DNA of 64,000 nucleotides from assembly GCA_001769535.1 (NCBI GenBank), contig MEOH01000010.1:192414-256413 (forward strand). The letters are read 5' to 3'. Of this stretch, positions 42,028 through 45,648 are shown in pieces (the stretch's first letter is position 1; every line of letters starts with the position of its first letter). Made by a program: the position numbers and the translations under genes. The stretch comes from Bacteroidetes bacterium GWF2_38_335. Its GTDB lineage: Bacteria; Bacteroidota; Bacteroidia; Bacteroidales; GWF2-38-335. The notes beneath the pieces are model-generated. The model was not told the origin of the DNA. It ran no database searches and was given only the letters and a program-made list of their open reading frames with translations.

Positions 42028-42831
42028 ATGGTTAAAAACATTTTTAAGGGAGCCACAGCTGTTTTAATCACAGCCGGTGCCGGTATGGGGGTTGATTCCG
42101 GATTGCCCGATTTCAGAGGAACACAGGGCTTTTGGAAGGCATATCCGCCTGTGGCAAAACTTGGTTTGTCATTCAGTGATATGGCCAATCCCATATGGTT
42201 TTTAAAGCGCCCCCGTCTTGCCTGGGCTTTTTATGGTCACCGGCTTAATCTTTATAGAGAAACTATTCCACATGATGGATTTGAACTTTTATTGAGGGAA
42301 ATTGAAAATAAACCCGGAGGTTATTTTGTTTCCACTTCAAATGTTGACGGACAGTTTCAGAAAGCCGGGTTTGATGAAAAACGGATAGTTGAAGTACATG
42401 GATCTATTCACCATTTGCAATGCTCACAGCCTTGTTGTGAAAAAATTTGGGAAGCAGGAGCGGAGAAGGTTGAGGTCGATCCTGAAAGGTTTGAGGCTCT
42501 TGGGACACTGCCTGTTTGCAGGGTTTGCGGAGCACTGGCCCGACCAAATATTCTGATGTTTGGTGATTGGTCGTGGATTTCGGATCGGAGTTCTGATCAG
42601 GAAGAAAAACTTGAGGAGTGGCTTGAAATGGTCAAATCAAAGGGTTCACGTCTTGTTGTGGTGGAAATTGGAGCCGGACTATCTGTTCCAACGGTCAGGT
42701 TCAAATCAGAATCGGTAGTCCGTAATTATAATGCAAGTTTGATAAGAATCAATCCGCGCGATTTTCAGGTTCCCCCGGGGCAATATTCAATAGCTGCCGG
42801 TGCACTGGAAGGGATAAAAAAGATTCTTTAA
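42028..42831 (+). CDS. SIR2-family NAD-dependent protein (sirtuin-like)
   Basis: This 267-aa protein carries the sirtuin signatures: NAD-binding GAGMGVDSGLPDFRG (residues 17-31), an NVD motif at 105-107, catalytic H124 in EVHGS, and a zinc site with C132 and C136/C137, then C164 and C167. Canonical sirtuins have TQN-I-D; here it is TSNVDGQF, so the glutamine that touches NAD is replaced by serine (S104). Deacylase or ADP-ribosyl transfer activity is likely but not certain. It reads toward the radical SAM gene, and the two coding regions overlap by 4 nt (42828-42831). Confidence 0.85.
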   Translation: MVKNIFKGATAVLITAGAGMGVDSGLPDFRGTQGFWKAYPPVAKLGLSFSDMANPIWFLKRPRLAWAFYGHRLNLYRETIPHDGFELLLREIENKPGGYFVSTSNVDGQFQKAGFDEKRIVEVHGSIHHLQCSQPCCEKIWEAGAEKVEVDPERFEALGTLPVCRVCGALARPNILMFGDWSWISDRSSDQEEKLEEWLEMVKSKGSRLVVVEIGAGLSVPTVRFKSESVVRNYNASLIRINPRDFQVPPGQYSIAAGALEGIKKIL

Positions 42832-43931
42832 TTTGTCAGCGGTTGATTTTTTTTGAAATCCACAGGTGTTTTTCTGCCTGCTTCAAAAACGGGATCGTTG
42901 CAAATGAGTTTTCCCCTGTAAACATGTGCTGCTTCACGGCATCCGCCGTCACAGTTGAAAAGTAAACCGCATTCTTTACACATTTCAGGATGATATTCCT
43001 TAAAAACAAAATGTTTCCAGTAATCGTTGTGCTTGAGATTTTCAATGTCTGAAATATGGTTGAGCTGACGGGGCGAATGATTGCAAGTGCGTATATTTCC
43101 TTCTGGCCCAACGACAAAAAATTCCCTTGCAGCCGAACACATTGTGCCCACGCGAAGGTTGACGAATTTTTTTCCAAAGATGATACACCTGGGTAATTCA
43201 GTGCCCACACTTCCTTTTCGGTTTGCTTTTACCAAAACGTTTTCTGCAGTTTCAAGCGCCTCAATGATTTCTTTTTCATTTAGCATCAGTTCTGATAAAT
43301 ACTCCAGTCCCCTTCCACCGGGCAAAAACCGGTTAAGCAACAGGTTGTCAGCTCCGGCAATCATGGCATTTGAAATGGTTTCAAACAGTTCATGCAGGTT
43401 GATTCGTGTTACTGAAATATTTACGGTGGTTTTTATTCCCATGGCATGGGCTTTTGAAAAAAGCTGAAGTATTTTTTCCGGTGAACCGCTTTGTGTATGC
43501 CGGTTGTATGTTTTTAGTCCGGGCAAACTCATGCTCAAACTAACATTCAATTCCTTTAGCAAGCTAAGAATTTCTTCGTCCACCAATTGTCCGTTTGATA
43601 TCAAAAAGAGATCCGGTGCCCGGTAAGATTTATTCAGATTTTTATCATGAAAAAGGCATTTTTGTGAGGATGCAAATTTTAAGATTTCTTTAAAATCTTT
43701 TTTCAGAAGAGGTTCGCCTCCGGTAAATGAAAAGCTGTTAACGCCCATTTCGCATAGCTTTTCGATGCAGTTTTTCCATTCATCTGTGTCAAGTTCTTCA
43801 CTGCGAATGTAATTGGACGATGGAGCTTCCCACGGGCAGGAGCAAAACAGACACTGGTGGTTGCACCTGTAAGTCATTTCAAGTACAGCTGCTTCGGGTA
43901 GAAAAGAGGGGGCTAATACGGATGCGGGCAT
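42828..43931 (-). CDS. Radical SAM/SPASM maturase-type enzyme
   Basis: This 367-aa protein has the radical SAM cluster motif C23, C27, C30 (YRCNHQCLFC), the SAM-binding FTGGEPLLKK and a TIM-barrel core. A C-terminal SPASM domain (about 260-355) follows, with the spacing MCSAARE, RTCNH, then CX2CX5CX3C (CKECGLLFNCDGGC) and a final IC. It should hold one SAM cluster and two auxiliary [4Fe-4S] clusters, the layout used by enzymes that modify peptides or proteins. It starts 2 nt after the stop of a Cys-rich lipoprotein gene and is the third gene of that operon. The obvious candidate substrates are the two lipoproteins. No peptide-recognition (RRE) domain is visible. Confidence 0.9.
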   Translation of the reverse strand: MPASVLAPSFLPEAAVLEMTYRCNHQCLFCSCPWEAPSSNYIRSEELDTDEWKNCIEKLCEMGVNSFSFTGGEPLLKKDFKEILKFASSQKCLFHDKNLNKSYRAPDLFLISNGQLVDEEILSLLKELNVSLSMSLPGLKTYNRHTQSGSPEKILQLFSKAHAMGIKTTVNISVTRINLHELFETISNAMIAGADNLLLNRFLPGGRGLEYLSELMLNEKEIIEALETAENVLVKANRKGSVGTELPRCIIFGKKFVNLRVGTMCSAAREFFVVGPEGNIRTCNHSPRQLNHISDIENLKHNDYWKHFVFKEYHPEMCKECGLLFNCDGGCREAAHVYRGKLICNDPVFEAGRKTPVDFKKNQPLTN

Positions 43932-43933
43932 TT

Positions 43934-44587
43934 TTATTTTTTTAGGCTAACTCCAAGCATTTCTTCAATCCTGTTGATGTGATCTTTAAGGGCTTCCTCT
44001 GATTCACGCTCTCCTTTGTGGATTTTTTCATCATTCAAAAATTCCATCAGTATTCCCAAATCTTCATAAGAAATATAGCATACTCTGGTTGATTTTTCTT
44101 CGCCTGGAATCTTTGTTGTAAGGCAGAGTTGGGGGTTGGTCACATTGGGACTGCATTTTCGGCAATACTGTGATTCGTCGAGTGAAACATTGATTCCTTT
44201 AATTTTTTTAACCATTTCACGGCATGCTCCGATATCATATAGTACTTTTTCAATTATTTCATATCCATTTTCGAACTTGTCACGTTCGTAAAGAGTTTTT
44301 TCACTGCATTTTGGACAAATATATGCTGCTGTTTCAGGCGGCATGGCCATGTCATAACACATGGCTCCGCGTGATAGGTCTTCCGGGGCAGGTGTCATAG
44401 AAAGTTTCAGCAGTTTACGCATGATATCTTCACGCGAATATTCGGGTATGATGGAATCCTTCAAAGCATTTGTTCCGGGCAAAATACTGTCCTTGCCATT
44501 AGATTCTGATGCAATTTTCTTTGATTTTGAAGTGCACCCGAGAATTATTCCGGTCACTGCAATAATCCCAATTATAAAATACCACAT
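43934..44587 (-). CDS. Cysteine-rich lipoprotein A of the radical SAM operon
   Basis: This 217-aa protein has a lipoprotein signal (MWYFIIGIIAVTGIILGC, lipid-anchored C18), a disordered Ser/Lys linker to about residue 45 and a folded part to the end. Cysteines are at 77 (GAMCY), 91 and 94 (CPKCSEKTLY), 122 (ACREM), 142 and 145 (CRKCSP), 155 (PQLCL) and 170. All but C170 have a counterpart in the paralogue just upstream. Paired CX2C motifs suggest metal or cluster binding, or sites for modification by the neighbouring radical SAM enzyme. I know no family name for it. Confidence 0.8.
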   Translation of the reverse strand: MWYFIIGIIAVTGIILGCTSKSKKIASESNGKDSILPGTNALKDSIIPEYSREDIMRKLLKLSMTPAPEDLSRGAMCYDMAMPPETAAYICPKCSEKTLYERDKFENGYEIIEKVLYDIGACREMVKKIKGINVSLDESQYCRKCSPNVTNPQLCLTTKIPGEEKSTRVCYISYEDLGILMEFLNDEKIHKGERESEEALKDHINRIEEMLGVSLKK

Positions 44588-44606
44588 AGTCTATGTTTTT
44601 TAATTT

Positions 44607-45254
44607 TTAATTTTTAATTTTTATTCCGAGCATCCGTTCAATTTGCGGGATGTAATTTTTAAGTGGGGTTTGCTCGTCCCTGTCGCCCGAATGAATCAGT
44701 TTGCCACTAAGAAATTCCTGCAATATTTCAAGATCGTCGGCCGAGATGCTGCTGACTTTAATGGTGTCTTCTTCTCCGTGTATATGAGTGTAAAGGCAGA
44801 GTTGGGGGGATACAACATCCGGACTGCATTTTTTGCAGAACTGTTTTTCGTCGATTCTGAGGTCAAGTCCTTTTATTTTTTCTGCCATGGAACGGCATGA
44901 ATGAATATTGTATCTGACGATATTGCTGATTTGGTAAAAATCTTTATCTGAAATGGTATACAGGGTCTTTTCACTGCATTGAGGACAGATATATGAAACC
45001 GAGTCGGGTTCCCTCATCGCACTGTAACACATGGCTCCCTGCTGAAGGTTTTCAGGTACCGGACTCATAGATAAATGGATGAGCTTTCTTATAAGGTCTT
45101 CTTTCGAAAAAGAAGGAATGATTGAGTCGTTGGGGTTGTCAGAACCAGAATTGACTTTAGTGGAGTCTTTTTCAGTATTATTGCCCCTGGATTTCACGGT
45201 GCATCCCCAAATAACTCCTCCGGCAATTAGAACAAGCAATCCGATTTGCCACAT
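44607..45254 (-). CDS. Cysteine-rich lipoprotein B of the radical SAM operon
   Basis: I start it at ATG 45254 (MWQIGLLVLIAGGVIWGC, anchored C18), which aligns exactly with lipoprotein A; the longer frame is rejected. The 215-aa product keeps the same blocks in the same order: SIIPSFSKEDLIRKL, GAMCY, CPQCSEKTLY, SCRSM, FCKKCSP, PQLCL, a C-terminal helix with IERMLG. So it is a tandem duplicate that has diverged elsewhere. It is the first gene of the operon, 19 nt ahead of lipoprotein A. Confidence 0.8.
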   Translation of the reverse strand: MWQIGLLVLIAGGVIWGCTVKSRGNNTEKDSTKVNSGSDNPNDSIIPSFSKEDLIRKLIHLSMSPVPENLQQGAMCYSAMREPDSVSYICPQCSEKTLYTISDKDFYQISNIVRYNIHSCRSMAEKIKGLDLRIDEKQFCKKCSPDVVSPQLCLYTHIHGEEDTIKVSSISADDLEILQEFLSGKLIHSGDRDEQTPLKNYIPQIERMLGIKIKN

Positions 45255-45282: not shown

Positions 45283-45363
45283 ATGAAAATCATTTTCTTA
45301 ATGGAAACAAGCAGTTAAAATCTTAATAACTTGATTCTATTTGTAAATTTGAATAATTATTAT

Positions 45364-45584
45364 TTGCAAGAAAACCCAAGTGGCAGATAAGAAAAACCCA
45401 AATTCAAGGGTTACTCCCTTTGGTCGTGAGCTCCGCTTCGCTACGGTTGCGTACTTAGCCGAAGGCGCTCATGAGCGAAGCGAATAACCCCCAAAAAGCG
45501 GAGCCCCGACTTTTAAAGTCGTGGATGAGCATTTTTGGGGCAAGCATAACGCAGAAGTTGGGGTTTTCTTGCTGACACTAATTT
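45364..45584. repeat. Inverted-repeat-ended dispersed element, copy B
   Basis: This is the second copy of the element at 20342-20481, about 220 bp long. The ends match copy A (TTGCAAGAAAAC, GATAAGAAAA, CCCAAATT on the left; GCAAGCATAACGCAGAAG and TTTTCTTGCTGACACTAATT on the right). The centre is longer and holds GC-rich palindromes such as CGCTCATGAGCG (45466-45477) and GACTTTTAAAGTC. It occupies most of the divergent 45255-45648 gap and separates the lipoprotein operon from the TPR-CAP gene. No coding frame is present. Confidence 0.7.
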
Positions 45585-45648
45585 TAATTTTTACATTTAC
45601 ACAATATTGATTAATTAATACCATTATAATAATATGGTACTGAAAAAA

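Follow-up and report, generated by a model that had tools for sequence, protein, structure and literature searches.

An operon on the minus strand of the Bacteroidetes bacterium GWF2_38_335 genome joins a radical S-adenosylmethionine (SAM)/SPASM enzyme to two cysteine-rich partner proteins. It lies in a 64,000-nucleotide stretch of contig MEOH01000010.1 (assembly GCA_001769535.1, positions 192,414 to 256,413 of the forward strand), the whole of which is called the window here. The favoured reading, with a probability of roughly 0.55, makes the operon a protein-modification cassette of two components, in which the enzyme acts on its partner at or near an invariant Cys-Tyr and the partner domain mostly faces the cytoplasm. 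Radical SAM/SPASM enzymes with a dedicated partner protein have repeatedly been a source of new chemistry, and this pair, which goes unnamed in every library searched, was recognised by none of the NCBIfam, Pfam, and PDB comparisons tried. It occurs across ten phyla or more, the partner always lying next to the enzyme, and it has one invariant Cys beyond the putative metal site. Because two adjacent genes encode the enzyme and a small, confidently predicted partner domain, the question of the substrate is directly testable.

A sequence-only reading of the window had described three genes lying head to tail, two of them encoding paralogous Cys-rich lipoproteins. The gene order holds: partner A (P0003), partner B (P0002), and the enzyme (P0001) follow one another, separated by 19 and 2 nt. 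The paralogy of A and B is likewise borne out (48% identity over 219 columns, E=7e-73). The longest open reading frame (ORF) of the partner A gene begins at 45293; the start at 45254 was preferred because an MW(Y/Q) start is conserved in the family.

Enzyme and partner are a real, dedicated unit. In a sample of 393 genomes from the order to which the window belongs, the partner was detected in seven and the enzyme in those same seven plus one (G079), an overlap with a hypergeometric p=3e-14. In G079, a divergent partner (P0005) sits directly upstream of the enzyme with a 1-nt overlap and retains both CxxC pairs and the Cys-Tyr, that is, all five family-wide cysteines together with Y78, bringing the order genomes that carry both to 8/8. 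The enzyme is also present in 20 of 42 Fermentibacterota genomes and, with this sample included, a partner adjoins 40/40 distinct family enzymes. A scan of named genomes yielded 42 partner loci, and the partners at L044, L046, L050, and L068, which long antisense ORFs mask, were found by a six-frame hidden Markov model scan. The sequence-only reading had proposed such a dedicated pair and had named an enzyme widespread without its partner as the outcome that would speak against it; that outcome was looked for, and no partner-free family enzyme was seen.

Each locus carries one to five tandem partner copies, and the partner and enzyme frames overlap by 1-14 nt in 44/53 loci with duplicates counted, or for about 28/40 distinct enzymes. 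The partner usually lies upstream of the enzyme; it is downstream in one case (G027/L029), and partners occupy both flanks at L044. A single chain with two partner domains and one anchor is encoded in an Armatimonadia metagenome-assembled genome (MAG; L041:9143-10507). Some partner loci are solitary, and in 5/6 of those tested, L065 being the exception, the enzyme is encoded elsewhere in the same genome. The window's own genome holds such a third paralogue (L028:6957-7634, on contig C11), which has neither a neighbouring enzyme nor a lipobox.

The family tree spans Bacteroidota, Fermentibacterota, Melainabacteria, Lentisphaerota, Planctomycetota, Thermodesulfobacteriota, Armatimonadota, Fibrobacterota, Verrucomicrobiota, and Myxococcota. 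Its titled records are MAGs throughout, and its hosts are uncultured bacteria, known almost entirely from metagenome assemblies. The enzyme family is rare, since it was detected in 1/395 genomes of a phylum-wide sample, the window's own genome alone. No relative was found on viral contigs, and the enzyme's plasmid matches, among the matches listed, are PqqE-like at 26% identity. The phylum-wide sample also holds a related yet distinct SPASM enzyme with a CLYCYNVW motif (160 bits; G428, L085:1492-2595), which overlaps a second radical SAM gene and has no partner of the window family.

Several partner paralogues per enzyme argue for partners as substrates rather than a stoichiometric subunit, and the partner is probably the enzyme's substrate. 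That it instead serves an enzyme with some other target, as a membrane tether, a scaffold, or a rubredoxin-like electron donor, is judged improbable. The four Cys of the CxxC pairs could hold Fe, a cytoplasm-facing anchor would bring the enzyme to the membrane, and pairing this strict is equally compatible with an obligate subunit. Against such a role, partner copies outnumber enzyme copies (up to five in tandem, plus the solitary loci), P0005 has no anchor, and no conserved candidate pathway genes lie nearby; at the loci compared, no further gene families recur across phyla beside the pair. An accessory role would also leave unexplained an invariant Cys-Tyr outside the metal site.

The conservation of the partner domain is what singles out this dipeptide. 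Beyond the anchor, A and B share seven cysteines (GAMC, CPxC, CR, CxKC, QLC), as the sequence-only reading had stated; family-wide the claim narrows to five, namely the CPxC and CxxC pairs and the Cys of GAMCY. The residues invariant in 58/58 homologues are C77, Y78, Y89, C91, C94, E138, C142, and C145 (P0002 numbering). Lineage-specific cysteines are found at ACR (38/58), QLC (20/58), and C170 (19/58), the last being an eighth cysteine of P0002 that P0003 lacks. The CPxC...CxxC arrangement follows a zinc-ribbon pattern, and the bound metal is probably zinc; the zinc-binding model PF07754 gives weak matches in 30/58 family members (best E 2e-5). Neither window partner matches NCBIfam or anything above the Pfam cut-off.

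Because the other four invariant cysteines have a putative metal role and the fifth has no obvious one, Cys-Tyr is the best candidate site for the modification, although the chances that it is the site are evenly balanced. The sequence-only reading had set simple zinc binding against modification, but metal binding and enzymatic modification are compatible here, since four of the five invariant cysteines are ribbon-like and one is left over.

AlphaFold2 predicts P0002 with a pLDDT of ~97 from residue 51 onward, which suggests a folded domain rather than a floppy precursor. A Foldseek search with this model returned nothing at E<0.001 in the PDB (best E 0.24) or in a viral library. Such confidence, and the conservation of the entire 165-residue domain, count heavily against the partner being the precursor of a ribosomally synthesized and post-translationally modified peptide (RiPP) whose modified core is excised and released. 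RiPP maturases are common among SPASM enzymes encoded beside small Cys-rich proteins, and SkfB is the best structural match of the window enzyme. A leader/core division, a RiPP recognition element (RRE), a peptidase, and an exporter are not conserved at the loci, however, and a RiPP precursor is very improbable.

Assignment of P0001 to the radical SAM/SPASM class, made before any database search, is upheld by PF04055 (85.6 bits against a gathering score of 29.5), together with a CX3CX2C motif, and by the SPASM model TIGR04085 (39.8 bits against a cut-off of 27). No NCBIfam equivalog is reached; for PqqE, the best of them, the score is 91.9 bits where 381 are required. The radical SAM cysteines C23, C27, and C30 are invariant, as is C32 in the CSCPW extension. 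The full SPASM motif has been described as CX9-15GX4C-gap-CX2CX5CX3C-gap-C (PMC6231123). Its first six cysteines are invariant in the family; the seventh is not conserved, and an invariant Asp, D346 (42894-42896), stands in its place. One auxiliary cluster may therefore have a non-Cys ligand or an open site. Because PqqE has an Asp ligand on record, and CteB and SkfB have open sites (PMC6231123), D346 leaves the chemistry undecided. The radical SAM core starts just ~13 residues from the N-terminus, so the enzyme has no RRE. Its model is confident (pLDDT 92.9), and the nearest solved structures by fold, SkfB, SuiB, CteB, anSME, TigE, and PqqE, are mostly peptide or protein modifiers. In one relative (L036:10612-11613) the enzyme frame stops short of the last SPASM cysteines, probably through an assembly frameshift or decay of the copy; the same is seen in G090.

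The periplasmic or outer-surface location that the sequence-only reading gave the partners fares poorly. Both window proteins end their hydrophobic stretch in a lipobox-like GC, yet they have no positive n-region, and the lipobox is not conserved in the family, being absent from 39/58 homologues. Lys or Arg precedes the hydrophobic stretch in 6/47 partners, compared with 88/99 same-locus proteins that have such a stretch (Fisher p=1e-19). The charge pattern favours an N-out/C-in orientation in 44/54 partners, and most carry net positive charge past the stretch. P0005 has neither anchor nor signal, and the soluble pair to which it belongs (L079:7673-9216) is the simplest version to express. Because of these charge patterns, the missing lipoboxes, and the signal-less P0005, a cytoplasmic domain is likelier than a surface lipoprotein, and the partner domain appears rather likely to face the cytoplasm on a reverse-type signal anchor. 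A reducing compartment would also be a fitting place for an unpaired Cys and for a zinc ribbon.

A rival reading takes the partners for true lipoproteins, which Sec would export after cytoplasmic modification and which would then be lipidated and displayed on the surface or in the periplasm; it is unlikely, although far from negligible. A classical MKK...VGC signal in G001 (L030) and the secretory look of three of the four L034 copies favour it. Precedent exists in anSME, which acts on large proteins and modifies sulfatases ahead of export. The lack of Lys or Arg ahead of the stretch in 41/47 partners and its abundance just past it disfavour lipidation, as does the better fit of five invariant Cys with a zinc-ribbon pattern to a reducing compartment. 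The lipoprotein label for the partners is weak, and the analysis of the anchor is a caution that a GC after a hydrophobic stretch is insufficient for filing proteins as lipoproteins.

Under the cassette reading, the operon would work as other SPASM enzyme/partner cassettes do. The cytoplasmic enzyme would make direct contact with the partner domain, either folded or still folding, with no RRE of its own and no leader peptide in the partner. By radical chemistry it would modify the GAMCY loop, at the invariant Cys-Tyr or close to it, and the four remaining invariant Cys (CPxC...CxxC) would stabilise the fold through a metal site resembling a zinc ribbon. As a first guess, and a doubtful one, the bond made is a thioether from the free Cys. 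The modified domain would be kept at the cytoplasmic membrane face by an uncleaved N-out/C-in anchor in most members, probably including the window pair; in a few lineages a cleavable signal, or nothing, would replace the anchor. Multiple partner paralogues per enzyme would represent variants of one modified domain. In its boldest form, the proposal is a novel radical SAM modification at the invariant Cys-Tyr of a stably folded zinc-ribbon domain that is tethered to the membrane and has a new fold. The modified residue would give a housekeeping-like protein a built-in redox or metal centre and would not end up in a released RiPP, which is conceivable yet clearly short of an even chance.

Several points weigh against the cassette reading. 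GC recurs at the anchor end in 4/4 L039 copies and, according to a loose pattern that missed the WGC of P0003, in 15/58 homologues; this speaks for genuine lipidation in some lineages, perhaps also of the window proteins. Ordinary-looking signal peptides occur in a few partners (L030, three L034 copies, L048). Co-occurrence alone cannot tell a substrate from a subunit or an electron donor, and the L065 genome holds a partner with an enzyme match of only 109 bits. Finally, it would be unusual for a SPASM enzyme to take a folded, 165-residue substrate with neither a leader nor an RRE to aid it.

Features of the operon, in window coordinates; residue numbers are those of each protein.
Feature	Position	Strand	Remarks
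Partner A (P0003)	44607..45254	-	215 aa; first gene of the operon; hydrophobic N-terminal anchor and Cys-rich domain
Anchor of A (MWQIGLLVLIAGGVIWG)	45204..45254	-	K/R absent before, K/R-rich after; lipobox-like GC at end
Cys-Tyr of A, C76-Y77 (GAMCY)	45024..45029	-	Invariant 58/58, also in P0005; candidate modification site
First zinc-knuckle-like CPxC of A, C90-C93	44976..44987	-	
Second CxxC of A, C140-C143	44826..44837	-	
A/B intergenic gap	44588-44606		19 nt
Partner B (P0002)	43934..44587	-	217 aa; paralogue of A; AlphaFold2 domain 51-217, pLDDT ~97
Anchor of B (MWYFIIGIIAVTGIILG)	44537..44587	-	K/R absent before; GCTSKSKK after
Cys-Tyr of B, C77-Y78 (GAMCY)	44354..44359	-	Invariant 58/58, also in P0005; candidate modification site
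First zinc-knuckle-like CPxC of B, C91-C94	44306..44317	-	
Second CxxC of B, C142-C145	44153..44164	-	
B/enzyme intergenic gap	43932-43933		2 nt
Radical SAM/SPASM enzyme (P0001)	42828..43931	-	367 aa; without N-terminal RRE domain
CX3CX2C motif and invariant extension, C23NHxCLFCSCPW34	43830..43865	-	C32 is an additional invariant Cys
SPASM region	42939..43187	-	Invariant C249 (linker), C265-X12-G-X4-C283, C318-X2-C321-X5-C327-X3-C331

Outside the operon, a gene that looks sirtuin-like from its sequence (window 42028-42831) is convergent with the enzyme gene, their 3' ends overlapping by 4 nt. Directly upstream of the operon, window 45370-45600 is an intergenic element rich in palindromes. It is 96% identical over 212 bases to a copy at C26:103039, recurs at four more places at 72-87%, and has shorter pieces elsewhere; it is probably a repeat resembling a miniature inverted-repeat transposable element (MITE) or a repetitive extragenic palindromic (REP) sequence.

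No literature on these motifs or on the pairing was found in the open-licence PubMed Central (PMC) literature, and the known systems resemble the pair in part. The partner shares its CPxCG knuckle with HVO_2753-type and other zinc ribbons (PF07754), but its domain, at ~165 aa, has no counterpart among PDB folds. PqqE, the top NCBIfam equivalog, has the same SPASM architecture, and like PqqE the window enzyme has no long N-terminal domain; the score falls far under the cut-off, however, and PqqA and PqqD are absent nearby. With anSME (template modelling score 0.68), the enzyme shares a SPASM architecture without an RRE, and anSME modifies a Cys within a large protein. Unlike the anSME system, the partner has no sulfatase fold and no conserved CxPxR-type motif, and an invariant Asp replaces the seventh SPASM Cys of the enzyme. 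Formylglycine formation of the anSME type was rejected, as the partner alignment shows no conserved P or R at +2/+4 of C77.

The RiPP maturases SkfB, CteB, SuiB, and TigE are the enzyme's best sequence and fold matches. SkfB, CteB, and SuiB bear an N-terminal RRE (PMC6231123), whereas the window enzyme opens with its radical SAM core and does not belong among RRE-dependent maturases; its partner is a stable domain rather than a leader/core peptide.

The closest parallel in layout is the TIGR04133/TIGR04134 radical SAM/lipoprotein system, in which a ~350-aa Bacteroidota SPASM enzyme adjoins small, N-terminally anchored putative lipoproteins, and which is present in the same genome. The genuine TIGR04133 enzyme there (537 bits; L080, C11:96279-97331) lies on a different contig from the window, with several short putative lipoproteins carrying a KYGV/YGI motif upstream; TIGR04134 proteins are found on contigs C26 and C2. 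A second TIGR04133-like enzyme, perhaps of a sister family (346.6 bits, below the cut-off; L081, C27:18548-19579), comes right after two small lipoprotein-like genes, one of them a weak TIGR04134 match. Against TIGR04133 (rSAM_w_lipo), the window enzyme scores 28.1 bits for a curated cut-off of 425, and TIGR04134 (lipo_with_rSAM, cut-off 39.8 bits) left the window locus unmatched in a search of its own genome. There is virtually no chance that the operon is this known system, in keeping with the earlier remark that its sequences were not recognisable as a known radical SAM/lipoprotein pair. The two systems resemble each other in layout and differ in substance: the window operon has an enzyme of another family and unrelated partners that bear a folded, zinc-ribbon-like domain.

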